64,000 nt of DNA from Geodermatophilus obscurus DSM 43160. Lineage in GTDB: Bacteria; Actinomycetota; Actinomycetes; Mycobacteriales; Geodermatophilaceae. Of this stretch, positions 1 through 8,581 are shown one piece after another. The translations under genes and the position numbers were made by a program. Position 1 is the stretch's first letter, and each line of letters starts with the position of its first letter. The notes under the pieces are model-generated. The model made no database searches and was not told where the DNA came from. It saw only the letters and a list, made by a program, of their open reading frames with translations. The stretch is taken from assembly GCF_000025345.1 (NCBI RefSeq), contig NC_013757.1:3968001-4032000 (forward strand), given 5' to 3'.

Positions 1-364
1 CGACGTCGCGCACCGCCCCGTCGACGACCAGCGCGGCCAGCCCGCGAGCGGCCGCGTAGCGCGCGATGATCTCGCCGAGCAGCGCCCGGTCCAGCGCGCC
101 GCCGCCGTCGACGACGAGCACGTCGCCGGGCTGGGCGAGGTCCAGGGCGCGGTGGACGACGAGGTTGTCGCCCGGTCGGGTGCGCACGGTCAGCGCGGGC
201 CCGGCCACTCGCGGCCAGCCGCCGCCGGGCACCCGGTGCACGCCGCAGATCCCGCCGCTGCGGGCCATGCAGTCGGACAGGATGCTCGTCGGCAGCGCAC
301 GGCAGCGCTCCAGCAGGCCGGCGTCCGGACGGGGGCCGGGCGGGTGCAGCCGGCAGGTGCTCAT
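1..364 (-). CDS. RraA-family protein (HMG aldolase / oxaloacetate decarboxylase type), 3' end cut by the window
   Basis: The frame starts at ATG 364 and is still open at base 1, so only about 121 N-terminal residues are visible. They contain the RraA-fold signature: GDVLVVDGGG, then a helix, then GLAALVVDGAVRD, the strand and loop holding the metal- and oxyanion-binding Arg-Asp of the family. Members either bind RNase E or act as class II 4-hydroxy-4-methyl-2-oxoglutarate aldolases or oxaloacetate decarboxylases. The catabolic neighbours make the aldolase/decarboxylase reading more likely here (inference). A GGAG motif overlaps the end of the upstream MFS gene, whose stop lies 11 nt before this ATG, so it is probably the last visible gene of the TRAP operon. 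The exact substrate cannot be told. Confidence 0.85.
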   Translation of the reverse strand, partial: MSTCRLHPPGPRPDAGLLERCRALPTSILSDCMARSGGICGVHRVPGGGWPRVAGPALTVRTRPGDNLVVHRALDLAQPGDVLVVDGGGALDRALLGEIIARYAAARGLAALVVDGAVRDV

Positions 365-375
365 GTCGGGGCTCC

Positions 376-1692
376 TCAGGTGGGTGCGGGCAGGTCGGGG
401 GCGCGGCGCCGGCGTCCGGGCAGCCGGCTCACCGGGAGCCCGCGCGACCGGCGGACCATCCGGCGGCTGACCCGGACGGTGACCGCGCCGGCCAGGCTCA
501 GCGCCGCGGCCGTGAGCCAGGCCGCGGAGTAGGACCAGGTCTGCGCGACGACGCCGAACAGCAGCGGACCGGAGGCGGCACCCAGCGACAGGCCGGTCTG
601 CACGAACCCGGTGACCGACGCCGCGGCGTCGCGGTTGTCGCGGATGACCGCGAAGTGGAACAGCCCGGTCCACGCCCAGCCGGCGCCGTAGGCCAGCACG
701 CCGCCGGCGACGGACGCCGGCACCGTGCCCGCCGCGAGCAGCACGTAGCCGGCCGTGCCGGCGGCCAGCAGGTTGGCGATGAACAGATAGGCGCTGCGGG
801 TGGGGTGCCGGTCGACGAGCAGGCCGTAGCCGATCCGGACCACCAGCCCCAGCACCGAGCAGCCCGCGAACAGCAGCCCGGCCGCGCCCGCGTCGGTGCC
901 GGCGGCGACCGCGGAGTCGACGAGGAAGACCCCGGTCGGGGTGGCCGCGGCCGAGCCCAGGAAGCCACCGACGGTGAGCACCACCAGCCCGCCGCGGGGC
1001 AGCCCCCGGTCCGGCGCCCGGGGAGCGCCGGGCGCGCGCGGCGCCCCGCCCCGCCGCCGTCCGACGTCCCGGCCGGTGAGGGAGACCAGCAGCAGGACGA
1101 CGGCGAGACCGACGGCGCAGGCGACCGCCCACCGCCAGCCGAAGACGAGGGCCACCCCGGGGACGGCGAGCCCGCCCAGCAGCGTCGCCGCCGGGATCGA
1201 GGACTGCTTGATGCCGAAGGCGACGCCGAGCCGCTGCTCGGTGACCAGCTCGGAGACCACCGCGTTGGCCGACGGCTGGGCGACGGCGTTGCCCAGGCCG
1301 CCGACGGCCAGCCCGGCCATCAGCGCGGCCGGCGAGCCGGCCAGGGCGATGACGGTGAGCGAGGCCGTGGCCAGCGCCGCGGCCAGGGCAGCACCGCGGC
1401 GCGACCCGAGCCGCTGCACCAGCCGGCCGGCGGGCCGGGCGAGGCCGCCGGAGACGGCGAACAGCGTCGCCGCGGCCAGGCCGAACAGGCCGAGGCCCAC
1501 CTGCAGGTCGGCGCGGATCTGCACCGCCAGCGCCCCGACGAGGAAGGCCGGCAGCACGCCGAGCACCGAGACGGCCACCGCCCGGAGCACGGCGCCCACC
1601 GCGCCCGGGGACCGGGCCCGCCGGCTCGGGGCAGCGGTGCGCCGGCCGGGTTCGTCGGGGTCGGCGTCCACGTCCCCGGCCGGGTCAGCCAC
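376..1692 (-). CDS. MFS transporter
   Basis: A 438-residue protein with about 12 hydrophobic segments and MFS-like loops such as GGLARPAGRLVQRLGSRRG after the second helix. I chose GTG 1692 because its GTGGCTGA overlaps the stop of the fusion dehydrogenase; the frame is open further upstream, but that part is Arg-rich and is the shadow of the neighbouring gene. The N-terminus up to about residue 35 is Pro/Arg-rich and cytoplasmic. It is translationally coupled to the catabolic genes before it and followed 11 nt later by the RraA-like gene. It is therefore likely to import a related acid or export a product. Two unrelated importers (MFS and TRAP) in one operon suggests more than one substrate form. 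Confidence 0.85.
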   Translation of the reverse strand: MADPAGDVDADPDEPGRRTAAPSRRARSPGAVGAVLRAVAVSVLGVLPAFLVGALAVQIRADLQVGLGLFGLAAATLFAVSGGLARPAGRLVQRLGSRRGAALAAALATASLTVIALAGSPAALMAGLAVGGLGNAVAQPSANAVVSELVTEQRLGVAFGIKQSSIPAATLLGGLAVPGVALVFGWRWAVACAVGLAVVLLLVSLTGRDVGRRRGGAPRAPGAPRAPDRGLPRGGLVVLTVGGFLGSAAATPTGVFLVDSAVAAGTDAGAAGLLFAGCSVLGLVVRIGYGLLVDRHPTRSAYLFIANLLAAGTAGYVLLAAGTVPASVAGGVLAYGAGWAWTGLFHFAVIRDNRDAAASVTGFVQTGLSLGAASGPLLFGVVAQTWSYSAAWLTAAALSLAGAVTVRVSRRMVRRSRGLPVSRLPGRRRRAPDLPAPT

Positions 1693-3883
1693 GCGCCACG
1701 ACCGCGAGCGGCCGGCCGACCTGCCCGGCCAGCGCCTGCAGCGCGCGGTGCGTCTCGGCGTCCAGCGGGACACCGAGCTCGCGGCGCAGCGCGCGCTCCG
1801 CGGCGGCCCGCTGTCCCGGCGTCCGGACCGGCAGGTCCGGGTCGACCGGGGCCAGCCCCCGCAGCTCGGCGAGCAGCCGGGCGGCGCCGCCGCCGATGGC
1901 CTCCGGGTCGCCCAGCCGCGCCGGGTCGAGGACCACGACCAGGTGACTGGTGTCCGGCGACCGGGCGCCGGACCGGAACGTCAGGTTGCCCACCCCCGGC
2001 CCCGTCGGCCCACCGGCCAGGACGGCGGTGAGGAGCTCCACCAGCAGGCCCAGCCCGTAGCCCTTGTGGCTGGAGCGCTCCCGGTCGCTGCCCAGCGGCA
2101 GCAGCGCCCCCCGGCCGGGGAAGACCGCGGCCGGGTCGGTCGTCGGCCGCCCCTCGGCGTCCACACCCCAGCCCAGCGGCACGGGCTTGCCGAGGCGCAG
2201 CGCGATCTCGAACTTGCCGGCGGCGACCGCGGAGGTCGCCATGTCGAAGACCAGCGGCTCCTCGCCGGGCACCGGCACCCCGAGCGCCAGCGGGTTGGTG
2301 CCGAGGTAGGGGCGGGCGGCCCCGGCGGGCGCGACGACCGGGCCGGTGTTGGTCGCCGCCAGCCCGACCAGCCCGAGCCGCGCCGCGTCGTACACGTAGC
2401 AGCCGCTGGCGCCGTGGTGGCTGCTCCGGCGCACGTTGACCCAGCCGACGCCGTACCGCCGCGCCCGCGCGACCGCCTCGTCGAACGCGAACGTGGTGAC
2501 CGGGTGGCCGAGCAGGTCGTGGCCGTCGACCAGGGCCACCGCGCTCCCGTCGGAGTGCACGCTCGGCCGGCCGTCGACGGCGATGACGCCGTTGCCGATG
2601 GCGCCGACGTAGGCCGGCAGCCGGGCGATGCCGTGCGAGTCGATGCCCGACAGGTCGGCGTAGGCGAGCACCCGCGCGGTGTCGCGGGCGTGGGACGGCC
2701 GGACGCCGACGGCCTCGAGCACCTCGGCCGTCCACGTCTCCAGGACGTCGGCCGGCACGCGCACCGCCGGCTCCCCGAGCACCTCCACGGCCTCCACCCC
2801 GGCCGGCTCGGCGGACGGGGACGCGGGGGCCGACGGCTCCCCCGACCCGAACGCGGCGAGGACGGCGTCGGCGACCTGCCCGGTCGACGCCGCCGCTCCG
2901 CCCTCCGGCACCAGGTCGTAGGTCCACGGGCCCGAGCGCAGCACGGCGCCGACCGCTGCCCGCACCCGCTCGCCGGCCTCCCGGGTGGCGGGGAAGTGCC
3001 GCAGCAGGGCGGCCAGGGCGAGGAAGCCGCCGAGCGGGTCGACCTGGTCCCGCAGCGCCCGCCGCGGAGCCGAGCCGTGCGCCGGCTCGAACAGGCCGAC
3101 GCACCGGCCGCGGACCGGCTCGCCGGGGTGCAGCGACGCCGACCCGCACAGTGCGGGGGAGCCGGCCCGCCCGGCGGCGAGGTCGGAGAGGATGTCGCCG
3201 AGCAGGCCTTCAGTGACCAGGACGTCGGGCACCGGGGCCCCCGAGCCCAGCTCGAACGCCGCGCGGTCGACGTACCGGTGCTCGACCTCGATCCCGCGCT
3301 CGCGGGCGACGTCGCCGGCGACCTGCCGCCAGAGCCGGCCGGTGGCGTAGAGGTTGGCCTTGTCCACCGAGACCAGCCGTCCGCCGCCCCGCCGTCCCAG
3401 CACGTCGCAGGCGGTGTGCACCACCTCGGCGACCCGTTCCCGGGTCAGCCGCAGCACGTCGGCGGCCTCGCTGCCGTCCTCCCGCAGCACCCGGTCGTCC
3501 GCGCCGCCGTACGAGCCGCCGATGAGGTTGCGCACGACGGTGAGCTCGCGGCCGTCGGCGAACGGGATCTCGCGCACCGAGATGCGCAGGTCGTAGCGCT
3601 CCCGGAGCCGGTGCAGGGCGACCTCCGGGCGCGGGCACACCCCGGCCGGCACGCGGGGGTCCTCCCCCACGGCGCCGAGCAGGATCGCGTCGGCGGCGTC
3701 GCAGGCGGCCAGCGTCCCGGCCGGCAGCACGTCGCCGGTCTCCGCCGCGGCCCGGGCGCCGACCGGCCAGGGCCCGGTGACCTCGACCTCCCCCCGCTCG
3801 GCCAGCAGGCGCAGCAGCCGCGTCGGCCCGTCGAGCACCTCCTCGCCGACGCCGTCCCCCGGCAGCAGCGCGACCCGGATCAC
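1685..3883 (-). CDS. Fusion: isopropylmalate/tartrate-dehydrogenase-like domain + Ldh2-family (malate/lactate) dehydrogenase
   Basis: A single uninterrupted frame of 732 residues joins two enzymes normally encoded separately. Residues 1-345 match beta-decarboxylating dehydrogenases: LLPGDGVGEEV at the start, the VDKANLY lysine at 175, EGLLGDILSD near 225-234 for metal and FEPAHGSAP at 265-273 for NAD. Residues 346-366 are a Ser/Pro/Ala/Glu linker. Residues 368-732 match Ldh2/MDG dehydrogenases: SGIDSHGIARLPAY, RRSSHHGASGCYVYDA with the catalytic His region, LGTNPLALGVPVPG and HKGYGLGLLVELL. GTG 3883 overlaps the previous stop by four bases. Known chemistry is oxidation of a 2-hydroxyacid by the C-terminal domain and oxidation with decarboxylation of a 3-carboxy-2-hydroxyacid by the N-terminal domain. 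Consecutive action on one substrate is inference. Confidence 0.88.
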   Translation of the reverse strand: MIRVALLPGDGVGEEVLDGPTRLLRLLAERGEVEVTGPWPVGARAAAETGDVLPAGTLAACDAADAILLGAVGEDPRVPAGVCPRPEVALHRLRERYDLRISVREIPFADGRELTVVRNLIGGSYGGADDRVLREDGSEAADVLRLTRERVAEVVHTACDVLGRRGGGRLVSVDKANLYATGRLWRQVAGDVARERGIEVEHRYVDRAAFELGSGAPVPDVLVTEGLLGDILSDLAAGRAGSPALCGSASLHPGEPVRGRCVGLFEPAHGSAPRRALRDQVDPLGGFLALAALLRHFPATREAGERVRAAVGAVLRSGPWTYDLVPEGGAAASTGQVADAVLAAFGSGEPSAPASPSAEPAGVEAVEVLGEPAVRVPADVLETWTAEVLEAVGVRPSHARDTARVLAYADLSGIDSHGIARLPAYVGAIGNGVIAVDGRPSVHSDGSAVALVDGHDLLGHPVTTFAFDEAVARARRYGVGWVNVRRSSHHGASGCYVYDAARLGLVGLAATNTGPVVAPAGAARPYLGTNPLALGVPVPGEEPLVFDMATSAVAAGKFEIALRLGKPVPLGWGVDAEGRPTTDPAAVFPGRGALLPLGSDRERSSHKGYGLGLLVELLTAVLAGGPTGPGVGNLTFRSGARSPDTSHLVVVLDPARLGDPEAIGGGAARLLAELRGLAPVDPDLPVRTPGQRAAAERALRRELGVPLDAETHRALQALAGQVGRPLAVVARG

Positions 3884-4731
3884 CGGAGCACCAGCTCGCG
3901 GCCCACGGTGGTGAGCGCCCGCTCGGTGCCGGCCTCGCCCAGGCACGCCTCCAGGCCGGCCAGCCAGCCGGGCAGCGCCTGCGCCATCGTCGGGTGGTCG
4001 GCGTGCCCGAGGTCGCCGCCGAAGGCGAGCTGGTCGTGCGGGTAGACCTCGCCCAGCGTCGTCGACGGCGGCCCGTCGGTGGTGAGGATGTCGGGCAGGA
4101 TGCCCAGCTCCAGCACCACGCCGAGCCGCGCCAGCTCCGGCGCGGCGTCGTCGTCCCACCCCAAGAACGGCATGCGCGGGTGGTTGAACAGCATCCGGCG
4201 CACCCCGGCCGCCGACGCCGCCCGGAAGAGCACCAGCGCCTCCGCGCAGGTCAGGTGACCCGAGGCCAGCACCAGGTCATGAGCGGCGACGACGTCGAGC
4301 ACCTCGCGCCACGCGGGCAGCAGCGCACCGGCGTCGTCCAGCACGTCGACCTGCCGGAAGGACAGCGTCCGGTGCACCGAGAGCTCGGGTGCGGCCGCCG
4401 ACGCGACGTGCGCGGGCGCGGAGACCGTCGGCATCCACACCACGCGCCCGCCGAGCCGGGCGGCCACCTCCACCGCGTCGGGGTTGGCCCCGCCGGCCGG
4501 TGAGTTGAGGACGATCCCGCCGACCACCCGGACGCCGTCGGTCTCCGGCCGGTCCGCGGCCAGGGCCGCGCGCTCCACCGTCGAGCCCTCGTGCGCCTTG
4601 AGGACGGCGAGGTCGACGCCGACCTGCGCGTGCGCGCCGACCACCTCGTGGTCGAGCCCGTGCCGCGCGACGAGGCTGGGCGCCCCGTGCACGTGCAGGT
4701 CGGCGACGCCGTCGATGAGCCGCGGGCTCAC
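3880..4731 (-). CDS. DUF6282-family amidohydrolase-like protein
   Basis: A 283-residue protein beginning with IDGVADLHVHGAPS, the DxHxH metal-binding start of amidohydrolase/PHP-type barrels. Later conserved points are LKAHEGST near residue 45, ASGHLTCAEAL in the middle and LFNHPRMPFLGW, which together would supply further His ligands. This arrangement fits the DUF6282 family, whose members have no settled substrate. GTG 4731 forms a GTGA overlap with the TRAP permease, and its own stop overlaps the fusion dehydrogenase start, so the three are strictly co-translated. A hydrolase (lactonase, amidase or phosphatase-like) acting on the imported compound is the plausible role; that is inference from context. 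Confidence 0.75.
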   Translation of the reverse strand: MSPRLIDGVADLHVHGAPSLVARHGLDHEVVGAHAQVGVDLAVLKAHEGSTVERAALAADRPETDGVRVVGGIVLNSPAGGANPDAVEVAARLGGRVVWMPTVSAPAHVASAAAPELSVHRTLSFRQVDVLDDAGALLPAWREVLDVVAAHDLVLASGHLTCAEALVLFRAASAAGVRRMLFNHPRMPFLGWDDDAAPELARLGVVLELGILPDILTTDGPPSTTLGEVYPHDQLAFGGDLGHADHPTMAQALPGWLAGLEACLGEAGTERALTTVGRELVLR

Positions 4732-6980
4732 CGCTCCGTCCGCGGGCGGTCCGCGGTCGTGGCGCCGGCGACGGGGGACACCGGTGGCGCGGGAGCCGGC
4801 CGCGGGGCCGTCGGGCTGCTCGGCACACCCGGCCTCCCGGCCTCCGGCTCCGCAGCGGCCCCGTCGTCCGGCCCGGCGCGGCGGCGGGTGATCAGGTGCA
4901 CGACGACGCCGGCGACCATGAAGCCCGCACCGACCGCGATGAACGTCGGCGTCATGACCAGCAGTGCGATCGCCGCGACCAGGAACAGCACCCGCTCGGG
5001 GATGCGCGCCGGGCCGAACAGCCAGGCGCCGGTGACCACCGCCAGCGAGGCCACGGCGAAGACCGAGGTGACGAAGGCGATCGCCACCGTGGCGGCGCCG
5101 CCCTCGAACAGCAGCCCGACGCCGCGCGGGGACAGCACGAAGATGAACGGCACGAGGAACGCCGGCAGGGTGTACTTCCACGTCAGCCACATGGTCTTGA
5201 CCGGCTTGCCACCGGTGATGGCGGCGGCGGCGAACGGCGACAGCGCCGTCGGCGGGGAGACCTCGCTGAGCACCGCGTAGTAGAAGATGAACATCGCCGC
5301 GGCGAACGGCTCGACGCCCACCTGCTGGAGCGCCGGCGAGATGACGACGAACGAGATGATGAAGCTCGCCGTCACCGGGACCGCGAGGCCCAGCAGGACG
5401 ACCACCACCGCGGAGAAGACGGCGGTGAGCACCACGTTGCCGTTGGAGAAGTCGACGATGATCCCGGCCAGCCGCAGCGCCAGCCCGGTCAGGGTCATGA
5501 CGCCGACGATGATGCCGGCCACGGCCATGACCGGGATGACCGACAGCGCACCGACCGCGCCCTGGGCCAGCGCGTCCCACACCCGCCGGGGCGTCATCCA
5601 CGACCGCCGCTCGAGGAAGCTGAGCAGGAAGGCCAGCACGGTGGCGTAGACAACCGCGCGGAACGGCGTGAACCCCAGCACCAGGAAGAAGACGATCGCG
5701 GCCAGCGACGAAAAGTGGTAGCCGAAGCGCAGCAGCAGCCGCCAGGGCGACTGGGTCTCCATCGCCACGGTGTGCGTCTTGTGCCGCCGGGCGTCCATCT
5801 CGATCGCCAGGATGATCCCCAGGTAGTACAGGATCGTCGGGATCGTCGCCCAGATGAGCACCTCGAGGTAGGAGACCTGCAGCAGCTCGGCGATGATGAA
5901 CGCCGCCGCGCCGAGGGTCGGCGGCGACATGATCGCGCCGATGCCGGCGGCCGCCAGCACGCCGCCGCCGGCCTCCTTCGGGTAGCCGGCCTTCTTCAGC
6001 AGCGGCCAGGAGATGCCACCCAGGGTGACGGTCGTGGCGACGCCCGAGCCGGACACCGTGCCCAGCAGGAAGCCCGAAAGCGTCACCGTGCGGCCGGGGC
6101 CGGCCGGGGACTGCCCGAACGCGGCGAAGGACAGGTCGATGAAGAACCGGGTGGCACCGGAGGCGGCCAGGACGGCGCCGTAGATGGTGAACAGGATGAT
6201 GTAGGTGGCGGCGACCTCCAGCGGCGTGCCGAAGATGCCCTGCAGGCCCATGACGTTGTGCCCGACCAGCCGCGGCCAGCCGAAGTTGGCGGTGGTGAAC
6301 GGCGCCGGCATGAAGGAGCCCCAGTACGCCGAGGCGATGAACAGCAGCACGACGATCGGGACCAGGATGCCGACGGTGCGCCGTGCGGCCTCCAGGACCA
6401 GCAGGATGAGCAGCGTGCCGATGATCAGGTCGGTGTCGGTCGGCAGGATCGCGCGCCGGAAGAAGCCCTGCCAGTCCGACACCATGTAGACGGCCGGCAC
6501 GAGGGAGGCCAGCGCCAGCAGCCAGTCCAGCACGTTCGGGCGGTCGGGCTTCCCGTCCTCCTTGGCCTTGGCCGACCGCGGCCAGCCGCGGTAGGTCAGG
6601 AAGGTCAGGAACAGGCCGATGGAGAGGAACGTCGGCAGGTACACCTGCCGCGGCATCGGGTTGAAGACCCAGTAGAGGCCGAACAGGGACAGCCCCACCC
6701 CGACCACCGCGGTGACCCAGCTCGGCCAGCCGGTCAGCTGGCGCGCCGGCTTCTCCGCCTCGAACTCCGCGATCAGCGCCTCCTCGTCGATGCGGTCGGG
6801 ATCGTCGACCGGATCGGCGCCAGGGCGCTTGTCCAGGGTGGCGACGTCCACGATGCCGCCCTGCCGGTGGGCGGCGTGGTGGGCGGCCTTGTGGACGCTG
6901 TCGTGCCGGGAGTGCTCCGCGCGGGCCTGCTCGTCCTCGGTCGTGTGGCTCCGTGTGCGGCCTGGCAGCTTCATCTTCAT
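4728..6980 (-). CDS. TRAP transporter fused permease (DctQ+DctM, 4TM/12TM type)
   Basis: A 750-residue membrane protein. Residues 1-80 are hydrophilic and His-rich (HDSVHKAAHHAAHRQ); then come a four-helix DctQ-like part and a long DctM-like part with many helices. Typical large-subunit motifs are GFLLGTVSGSGVATTVTLGGI and a second inverted-repeat counterpart near GLAVPVTASFIISFVVISPAL. This fused form is characteristic of TAXI-type TRAP systems, which use ion gradients to take up organic acids. ATG 6980 sits in an ATGA overlap with the DUF1850 gene; the frame upstream is shadow. The C-terminal 40 residues are Pro/Ala-rich and cytoplasmic. Partner: the TAXI lipoprotein encoded two genes upstream. 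Confidence 0.93.
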   Translation of the reverse strand: MKMKLPGRTRSHTTEDEQARAEHSRHDSVHKAAHHAAHRQGGIVDVATLDKRPGADPVDDPDRIDEEALIAEFEAEKPARQLTGWPSWVTAVVGVGLSLFGLYWVFNPMPRQVYLPTFLSIGLFLTFLTYRGWPRSAKAKEDGKPDRPNVLDWLLALASLVPAVYMVSDWQGFFRRAILPTDTDLIIGTLLILLVLEAARRTVGILVPIVVLLFIASAYWGSFMPAPFTTANFGWPRLVGHNVMGLQGIFGTPLEVAATYIILFTIYGAVLAASGATRFFIDLSFAAFGQSPAGPGRTVTLSGFLLGTVSGSGVATTVTLGGISWPLLKKAGYPKEAGGGVLAAAGIGAIMSPPTLGAAAFIIAELLQVSYLEVLIWATIPTILYYLGIILAIEMDARRHKTHTVAMETQSPWRLLLRFGYHFSSLAAIVFFLVLGFTPFRAVVYATVLAFLLSFLERRSWMTPRRVWDALAQGAVGALSVIPVMAVAGIIVGVMTLTGLALRLAGIIVDFSNGNVVLTAVFSAVVVVLLGLAVPVTASFIISFVVISPALQQVGVEPFAAAMFIFYYAVLSEVSPPTALSPFAAAAITGGKPVKTMWLTWKYTLPAFLVPFIFVLSPRGVGLLFEGGAATVAIAFVTSVFAVASLAVVTGAWLFGPARIPERVLFLVAAIALLVMTPTFIAVGAGFMVAGVVVHLITRRRAGPDDGAAAEPEAGRPGVPSSPTAPRPAPAPPVSPVAGATTADRPRTER

Positions 6981-7552
6981 CGCTCGATCTCCAGTAGCAC
7001 GGTGGGGTCTTCCCTGGTCAGGAGCCGCCAGATCGGGACGGGGTCGGTACCCAGGGTGTGCAGTGTGCGCTCGCCCAGGTCGGTGGCGGCGATGTTCAGG
7101 ACGTCGAAGACAGCAGGGCGGGCCGGGTCGGGCTCGGCCACGTGGTGGCGGCGGTCGCCGGGCGGCGCCGGTCGCGGTGCACCCGGTACGGCGTAGTACT
7201 CCTCGAGCACGGCCACCTGGTCGGCGGCCAGCTCGACGAGCTCGAAGCGGCCGTCGGGGAGGACGCGGTACCGCTCCTCGGCCAGGGTGGTGTAGACGCT
7301 GTTGCGGTAGCTGACGGCGAACCGGTCCCCGGTCAGCGGGACGCGGGCGACGACCTCGCCGTCCGGCGTCCGGACGACGACCGCCCGGCCGTCGTCCCCG
7401 GCCAGCCCCGCGGTGGTCGCAGCGGCCCCCGCCCCGATCAGCACCGCGGCCGGCACCAGCACGACGGGGGCGAGCCACCGAACCGTGCGGCTGCGGGAGG
7501 TCGTGCCGCCGGGGCCCGCGGCGCGAGCCCCGGACCCCGACCGCACGGCCAC
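6977..7552 (-). CDS. DUF1850 domain protein, TRAP-TAXI accessory
   Basis: A 191-residue protein with one N-terminal membrane segment (about residues 28-50) and an extracytoplasmic domain. The pattern VARVPLTGDRFAVSYRNSVY followed by ERYRV, FELVELAAD and a C-terminal ALDH-free beta-rich stretch is that of DUF1850, a small family regularly found next to TAXI-type TRAP genes. It is placed between the binding protein (27 nt away) and the permease (ATGA overlap), as is usual for the family. Its biochemical role is not known; assembly or gating of the transporter is a guess. GTG 7552 is the only start giving a full transmembrane anchor. Confidence 0.8.
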   Translation of the reverse strand: MAVRSGSGARAAGPGGTTSRSRTVRWLAPVVLVPAAVLIGAGAAATTAGLAGDDGRAVVVRTPDGEVVARVPLTGDRFAVSYRNSVYTTLAEERYRVLPDGRFELVELAADQVAVLEEYYAVPGAPRPAPPGDRRHHVAEPDPARPAVFDVLNIAATDLGERTLHTLGTDPVPIWRLLTREDPTVLLEIER

Positions 7553-7579: not shown

Positions 7580-8581
7580 TCAGCCCACCGAGTCGAAGTA
7601 GGCCTGCGCGCCGGGGCAGGTCTCGATGAAGGCGACCTCACCGGCCGTCGCCGGGTCGAGCTCCTCGGCCGCCGGGTGCACGGTGAGCAGCTGTTCCTTG
7701 TTCTCGAAGATCGTCCGCGTGATGTCCTGCTGCAGCTGCTCGTCCATGTCGGTGCGGGCGACGAGGATGTTCGGCGAGACGACCTGCGGCGAGGCCTCGG
7801 TCTGGCCCTCGTAGGTGTTGGCCGGGATCTCCTCGGTGAAGTAGTAGTCGCCGTACTGCTCGGCCATCGCGTCGGTGTACTCCCCGGTCGGGATGAGGAC
7901 CAGGTCGGCGTTGTTGGCCAGCTCGACGATGGCGCCGGTGGGCAGGCCGCCGGACCAGAAGCCCGCGTCGACGGTGCCGTCCTGGATCGCCGCGACGGTC
8001 TCCGCGACCCCCAGCTGGGCACGCTCGATGTCGGCCTGCGGGTCGAGGCCGGCCGCCTGCATGATCCGGTCGGCGGTGACCTCCGAGGCCGAGCCGACCG
8101 CCCCGGGCGACACCCGCTTGCCGCGCAGGTCCTCGATCGAGGTGATCCCGGTCGCGGCAGTCGTGAAGACGTGCGTGAAGTTGTTGTAGATGTTCCCGAG
8201 CGAGCACAGCGGCAGCGCCTCGGTGAACGTGTTCTCACCGTTGGCCGCGTCGGAGACGACGTCGCCGAGGCCGAAGGCCAGCTGCGCCTGCCCCGAGGCC
8301 AGCAGCTGCATGTTGTCGACCGAGGCGTTGGTCTCCTGGACCGTGACCGTCGTCCCCTCCAGCTCCGAGCTGAGCAGGTTGGCGATGCCACCGCCGTAGG
8401 GGTAGTAGACGCCGCCGGTGCCACCCGTGGCGAAGGTCAGGGGGCCGCCGGCCTGCGCGCCCTCACCGCCCCCGGTGCCCCCGGACTCGCCCCCGCCACA
8501 GGCGGTGAGCAGGAGCGCGGAGGCCAGCGCGGTGCCGAGGAGGCGGCGGGTCGGCCGGGCGGGGATCGGGCTGGAGGTCAT
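7580..8581 (-). CDS. TAXI-family TRAP solute-binding lipoprotein
   Basis: A 333-residue secreted protein. A basic N-terminus and hydrophobic stretch end in the lipobox LLTACG, so it is probably lipid-anchored, followed by a Gly/Glu linker. The mature part shows the TAXI hallmark GGTGGVYYPYGGGIANLLS directly after the first strand, and EDLRGKRVSPGAVGS, WSGGLPTGAIVELAN later on. TAXI proteins deliver glutamate, dicarboxylates or similar acids to fused TRAP permeases. It is the first gene of the minus-strand operon, with its promoter in the gap shared with the divergent GntR regulator. ATG 8581 is preceded by an AGGAAGGCC ribosome site. Confidence 0.93.
   Translation of the reverse strand: MTSSPIPARPTRRLLGTALASALLLTACGGGESGGTGGGEGAQAGGPLTFATGGTGGVYYPYGGGIANLLSSELEGTTVTVQETNASVDNMQLLASGQAQLAFGLGDVVSDAANGENTFTEALPLCSLGNIYNNFTHVFTTAATGITSIEDLRGKRVSPGAVGSASEVTADRIMQAAGLDPQADIERAQLGVAETVAAIQDGTVDAGFWSGGLPTGAIVELANNADLVLIPTGEYTDAMAEQYGDYYFTEEIPANTYEGQTEASPQVVSPNILVARTDMDEQLQQDITRTIFENKEQLLTVHPAAEELDPATAGEVAFIETCPGAQAYFDSVG

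Follow-up and report, generated by a model that had tools for sequence, protein, structure and literature searches.

Natural fusions tell which enzymes work together, and a gene near one end of a 64,000-nucleotide stretch of Geodermatophilus obscurus DSM 43160 (contig NC_013757.1, positions 3,968,001 to 4,032,000; hereafter the window) raises the question of whether two dehydrogenases of different families truly form a single polypeptide, and what such a polypeptide would do. The analysis described here finds that this bifunctional architecture, drawn from two known enzyme families, is real and conserved. With a probability of roughly 0.6, this gene of a carboxylate-catabolic operon is best read as encoding a bifunctional dehydrogenase in one chain, probably linked to nicotinamide adenine dinucleotide phosphate (NADP), which would act on an imported hydroxy-dicarboxylate.

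Read on the minus strand from 3883 to 1685, the window contains a single frame that stays open from a GTG start to a TGA stop and encodes 732 residues. A preliminary description had placed two oxidoreductases of different families, fused in one chain, at 1685..3883 without naming the strand; frame translation and Pfam agree with both the coordinates and the fusion, and the gene lies on the minus strand. Its parts are as follows.

1685..3883, minus strand: fused gene, Iso_dh (PF00180) plus Ldh_2 (PF02615), 732 residues, GTG start, TGA stop (frame translation and Pfam)
2861..3874, minus strand: Iso_dh (isopropylmalate-dehydrogenase-type) half, residues 4–341 (Pfam and alignments)
2756..2860, minus strand: variable linker, residues 342–376
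2762..2764, minus strand: possible internal GTG start of the Ldh2 half at residue 374 (VRVPADV), not conserved
1736..2755, minus strand: Ldh2 (malate/L-lactate dehydrogenase type 2) half, residues 377–716 (Pfam and alignments)

Residues 4–341 match PF00180 with an E value of 7e-55 and 187.1 bits (gathering score 27) over profile positions 2–348 of 348, and residues 377–716 match PF02615 with an E value of 1.7e-109 and 366.4 bits (gathering score 38.8) over positions 2–333 of 333, which places each half within its superfamily; Pfam detects no other family in the 732-residue protein. The fusion is the sole full-length match in its own genome, a single contig; an Ldh2 protein (36%) and an isopropylmalate dehydrogenase (37%), each encoded apart from it, give the two partial matches.

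The searches for this architecture covered overlapping samples of the family, order, class and phylum of the window, together with one phylum represented by a gammaproteobacterial metagenome-assembled genome. Among 112 genomes of the same family, Geodermatophilaceae, 20 genomes in 5 of 12 genera match at E 1e-60, with query residues 1 to 730–732 covered and no internal stop, which confirms the frame at full length in related genomes; the other 92 give no match at this threshold, at which single halves of greater divergence would escape notice. Finding the two genes apart in close relatives had been named beforehand as fatal to the fusion; this was not the case, as all 20 carriers are fused and no split version occurs at E 1e-60 in the family. 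A related-locus search returned eight loci, six of them fused (G. obscurus DSM 43162, G. africanus, G. chilensis, G. poikilotrophus, Geodermatophilus sp., and Blastococcus sp., several of which are probably already counted among the 20 carriers), and two that are Ldh2-only relatives of about 30% identity. In the order sample, 18 of 397 genomes match at E 1e-60, comprising 15 fusions, all from the same family, and 3 genomes with the Iso_dh part only; in the class sample the matches number 3 of 394 (the window's own fusion, one from another family member, and one Iso_dh part only), and in the phylum sample the window's own genome is the single match among 296. The 249 genomes of the gammaproteobacterial phylum yield one match at E 1e-50, an Ldh2 protein with a stop inside the aligned stretch, which is therefore not fused, and the plasmid collection yields no match at E 1e-40. 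Within the genomes searched, the fusion is limited to Geodermatophilaceae.

The possibility that two genes were joined by a sequencing or assembly artefact, in favour of which nothing was found, is refuted by the recurrence of the same joint in 20 genomes of five genera and in the six named records, and its probability is practically nil. The earlier statement that no enzyme of this architecture has been described agrees with the open literature, where no paper was found on a fusion of isopropylmalate dehydrogenase with Ldh2 or of PF00180 with PF02615, in a search that left most subscription journals and the architecture databases outside its reach; the same literature gave no paper linking Geodermatophilus with isopropylmalate dehydrogenase.

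The linker and possible internal start sites

The linker, first described as 21 residues long, spans about 35 residues by the Pfam edges and varies from 23 to 40 residues across the 20 fused proteins, always in frame. Mean pairwise identity among these proteins is 83% for the Iso_dh half, 80% for the Ldh2 half and 51% for the linker, and the median ratios of nonsynonymous to synonymous substitution rates (dN/dS) over 190 pairs are 0.28, 0.32 and 0.61, respectively, absolute values being rough in GC-rich genes such as these. Both halves are under purifying selection. The 20 sequences show 12 different linker lengths. To explain them, the tree of the Iso_dh half needs no fewer than 12 changes, every one of which preserves the frame, where about one-third would be expected to do so if the frame were irrelevant; a frame-broken version would have appeared as separate halves in the family search, and none did at E 1e-60. 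The joined frame therefore looks selected.

The preliminary description also held that the halves are separated neither by a stop nor by a start preceded by a good ribosome site. The first part stands, as the frame is open; the second does not, as the window's own genome has a GTG at 2764 with GGAG 6 bases upstream and another at 2782 with a ribosome site 9 bases upstream. Internal starts with ribosome sites number 20 in the 20 fused genes against 12.1 expected from synonymous shuffling, and 14 of the 20 genes contain at least one against 9.7 expected. A conserved internal start is not supported, as 6 of the 20 genes have no such site, though the sites are modestly in excess. In this genome, a free Ldh2 protein could arise from GTG 2764 alongside the fusion, so that the product would be split by internal initiation; the GGAG and the family-wide excess speak for this arrangement and the six genes without a site against it, and it is considered improbable.

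Catalytic and putative cofactor residues of the two halves

The preliminary description reported intact active sites in both halves, and the mapped catalytic residues are indeed present and invariant in all 20 fused proteins. In the Iso_dh half these are R94, R104, R118, Y125, K175, D206, D230, and D234, to which catalytic roles are assigned by the corresponding positions of isopropylmalate dehydrogenase; the three Arg, one Tyr, one Lys and three Asp that mark the catalytic site of the PF00180 superfamily thus occur in every fusion. The half shares its fold family, and all eight of these residues, with the 3-isopropylmalate dehydrogenase LeuB and its kin (tartrate, isocitrate, and homoisocitrate dehydrogenases), and among solved structures it comes closest to those of LeuB (3u1h, E 6.7e-50). 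It differs from them in being fused to Ldh2 and in scoring under every curated NCBIfam cut-off: the fusion reaches 181.6 bits against the LeuB model TIGR00169 (cut-off 353.2), 138.4 bits against the LeuB model NF002898 (cut-off 393) and 109.1 bits against the tartrate dehydrogenase model TIGR02089 (cut-off 470.4). The genome's own LeuB is encoded elsewhere and scores 576 bits against NF002898. A further difference is His 91, found in all 20 fusions where 3u1h has Leu, in a column that we take to be a substrate-pocket position.

The residues that follow the HGSAP motif bear on the cofactor. The genome's LeuB reads Asp-Ile there, all 20 fusions have R274-R275, and the seven stand-alone relatives described below have His-Arg; the two columns presumably correspond to those of Lys344 and Tyr345 of Escherichia coli isocitrate dehydrogenase. 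These two residues are listed among the NADP-binding residues of the E. coli enzyme (PMC8623467). From the replacement of the LeuB Asp-Ile pair by R274-R275, we infer that the Iso_dh half leans to NADP.

In the Ldh2 half, the invariant residues are S416, H417, R421, Y425, H489, D547, K607, and R692. The first seven match Ser43, His44, Arg48, Tyr52, His116, Asp174, and Lys224 of the ureidoglycolate dehydrogenase AllD, of which Arg48 and His116 have been proposed to be essential in the AllD study (PMC3527362). R692 aligns with Arg314 of DpkA and Asp308 of AllD, a position linked in the same study to the choice between NADPH and NADH, and the substrate-contacting Ser140-Asp141 of AllD given there are replaced by Thr-Gly in the fusion, the columns having been matched by reading of the motif. 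The half shares its full-length domain with the Ldh2 family (PF02615), which includes AllD, L-sulfolactate dehydrogenase, DpkA, and YiaK, and its best solved relative is 1v9n (E 8.8e-58). Unlike the known members, it forms the C-terminal half of a larger chain and falls under all NCBIfam cut-offs, with 202.8 bits against the L-sulfolactate dehydrogenase model NF040650 (cut-off 500) and 177.9 bits against the AllD model TIGR03175 (cut-off 496.2).

With scores this far below the curated cut-offs, identities as LeuB, tartrate dehydrogenase, and sulfolactate dehydrogenase are rejected, and the tartrate, isopropylmalate, and sulfolactate that had been suggested as substrates are not favoured.

Gene neighbourhood and proposed function

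What the fused enzyme might do is suggested by the genes around it, of which those listed here lie on the minus strand.

7580..8581, minus strand: TAXI-family TRAP solute-binding protein (NCBIfam and similarity)
6977..7552, minus strand: small conserved protein of the TRAP cluster
4728..6980, minus strand: fused TRAP transporter permease (TIGR02123, NCBIfam), ATG at 6980, open frame up to 7478
3880..4731, minus strand: DUF6282 protein (PF19799, Pfam), GTG at 4731
376..1692, minus strand: major facilitator superfamily (MFS) transporter, GTG at 1692 (Pfam run on 376–1689)
5..364, minus strand: RraA-like gene that leaves the window, 81% to the PF03737 protein of relative locus L007; similarity complete in L041, 11688–12365

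The DUF6282 gene ends 4 bases inside the fusion, and the MFS gene, with its likely start at GTG 1692, begins 8 bases before the fusion ends, an arrangement that resembles a tightly packed operon. Similarity searches recover the order TAXI, small protein, TRAP permease, DUF6282, fusion, MFS, RraA-like, DUF1932 in all six longer relative loci (L004–L009). In the 1.5-kb flanks, whose listed open frames run from stop to stop and have edges that are not gene starts, the permease and the downstream MFS gene stand beside the fusion in 20 of 20 loci and the upstream DUF6282 gene in 19 of 20. Further along, loci of sufficient length contain a second MFS gene, a homologue of L-2-hydroxyglutarate oxidase, and DapA-, FAH-, and SDR-type genes. 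The setting is catabolic, and all of the neighbouring genes would serve one pathway; a defence-system reading was discarded, PADLOC giving no match.

Enzymes of the Iso_dh type oxidise the 2-hydroxyl of a malate-like diacid, whose 3-carboxylate is lost as CO2 to leave a 2-oxo acid, all in one active site, while those of the Ldh2 type convert 2-oxo acids (or imines) to (S)-2-hydroxy acids and back. The order first proposed, in which oxidation of a 2-hydroxyacid precedes decarboxylation by the other half, is not borne out by this general knowledge, since the Iso_dh half would perform both reactions itself and no prior Ldh2 step is needed; the two chemistries meet at the 2-oxo acid, which makes that order less natural. 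The favoured sequence, in which the Iso_dh half would act first and the Ldh2 half would then take up either its product or the other C2 epimer, fits better. In the preferred reading, the TAXI-TRAP transporter, the MFS transporters, or both would import an acid, which the DUF6282 protein, perhaps a metal hydrolase, might prepare; a 3-substituted (2R)-malate-type diacid would be oxidised at its hydroxyl and decarboxylated by the Iso_dh half, which gives a 2-oxo acid; the Ldh2 half would interconvert this 2-oxo acid with an (S)-2-hydroxy acid, or oxidise the substrate's other epimer into the same pool; and an RraA-type aldolase with further enzymes would finish the breakdown.

Several observations weigh against this reading. 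The AlphaFold model of the fusion, built from 9 sequences, is poor (mean predicted local distance difference test score of 61, predicted template modelling score of 0.44), and a fold search on a model of such low confidence would give meaningless matches. The internal start could also yield a free Ldh2 protein in this genome. An Arg at the position of R692 is also found in the distant Ldh2 proteins L010 and L011, which makes this residue a weak sign of NADP. The trees of the two halves (L001, L012–L030) conflict, as the Iso_dh half groups the genus (100/100) and the Ldh2 half nests L021 and L026, from other genera, within it (98/98); the conflict is borderline by the approximately unbiased (AU) test (p 0.06) and suggests that the Ldh2 half may have been exchanged by recombination. 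In genome G007 (L039), the transporter genes are kept, DUF6282 is not beside the fusion and no RraA gene occurs in the 18 kb retrieved, so that these two partners are not indispensable.

A special case of the preferred reading, with which its odds overlap, is a redox-neutral machine in which the Iso_dh half would make NADPH and a 2-oxo acid and the Ldh2 half would spend the NADPH to yield an (S)-2-hydroxy acid, as a two-domain analogue of malolactic-type decarboxylation. NADP(H)-binding signs occur in both halves, and by general knowledge one half yields the class of compound that the other takes as its substrate. A homologue of L-2-hydroxyglutarate oxidase lies some kb downstream (the L007 copy scores 541 bits against NF008726, cut-off 299, and the window genome's own copy is 91% alike); however, this gene is on the other strand, and the NADP sign of the Ldh2 half is the weak one noted above, so that such a machine is judged unlikely.

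The fusion links an uncharacterised subfamily of decarboxylating dehydrogenases, together with DUF6282, to a TRAP importer, an RraA-type gene and an enzyme of the Ldh2 family. This narrows the search for a carboxylate pathway in soil and rock actinobacteria and offers a candidate for a ready-made two-step biocatalyst.

Two smaller features of the neighbourhood may be recorded. The small protein at 6977–7552, between the TAXI and TRAP permease genes, is kept in relatives and has no family match in Pfam or NCBIfam. In L006 and L016, the MFS gene downstream of the fusion is split into two open frames in the draft genome, a possible frame break or assembly error.

Stand-alone relatives, DUF6282 and origin

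Seven genomes outside the family (L035–L038, L067–L069) carry an Iso_dh enzyme that is 45–47% identical to the first half of the fusion and stands alone. They came from the order and class samples and from a set of 148 genomes, in which four were found; a search of 24 genomes found three of them again. DUF6282 lies directly upstream in six of the seven; in the seventh, only about 110 bases of contig precede the gene. The retrieved stretches (3–16 kb) of all seven lack an Ldh2 match at E 1e-5. The motifs SPALCGSA and DKA..(Y/F)AT.R(L/M)WR are common to the 4 stand-alone and 13 fused proteins that were aligned. Unlike the fused loci, the six longer stand-alone loci (L035–L038, L068, and L069) form a conserved cluster in which DUF6282 and Iso_dh adjoin genes for a flavin adenine dinucleotide (FAD) oxidoreductase, an acyl-CoA dehydrogenase, an adenosine monophosphate (AMP) ligase, and VOC proteins, and three of the six also adjoin an enoyl-CoA hydratase gene.

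These stand-alone enzymes bear on a further alternative, in which two independent activities were joined only for co-expression or stoichiometry and each half acts on a different metabolite of the pathway. The lack of a nearby Ldh2 gene in 7 of 7 other genomes agrees with it, as do the variable, weakly constrained linker and the borderline disagreement of the half-trees, which look as if halves had been exchanged. The preservation of the frame through at least 12 changes of linker length argues against it, as does the lack of any split version at E 1e-60 in the 112 family genomes, and this alternative is regarded as possible but rather unlikely.

In a tree rooted on very distant LeuB, the 7 stand-alone enzymes separate from the 20 fused halves, with support of 98 and 78 for the two groups. 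Trees with such distant outgroups are not used here for firm claims of origin, and because the root is weak, it is only tentatively that we infer DUF6282 and Iso_dh to be the older module, which Ldh2 would have joined later in Geodermatophilaceae. If this order were combined with the redox-neutral scheme, the architecture would be a one-chain cofactor-recycling decarboxylase, built up in Geodermatophilaceae from a DUF6282/Iso_dh module that already existed and converting a diacid to an (S)-2-hydroxy acid without net redox change, a combination that is marginally more doubtful than the scheme itself.

DUF6282, on which the open literature gave no paper, is also found without the fusion. It occurs in 28 of 108 family genomes, of which 19 carry the fusion and 9 do not; the twentieth carrier, G007, is not among the matching genomes and may have been outside the set of 108. 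The copies in the 9 non-carriers are 32–36% identical to that of the window. In the phylum of L010, 8 of 249 genomes contain DUF6282 at E 1e-30, in mixed neighbourhoods that give no clue to a substrate, most neighbours having been judged by eye. Twelve other copies from the family (L070–L074, L077–L079, L082, L090, L096, and L097) adjoin different genes, with an enoyl-CoA hydratase-like gene in 4 of the 12, and DUF6282 may therefore serve several pathways. At L061, one of the neighbourhoods in the phylum of L010, RraA-like and Iso_dh genes lie near DUF6282, the Iso_dh being only 30% identical.

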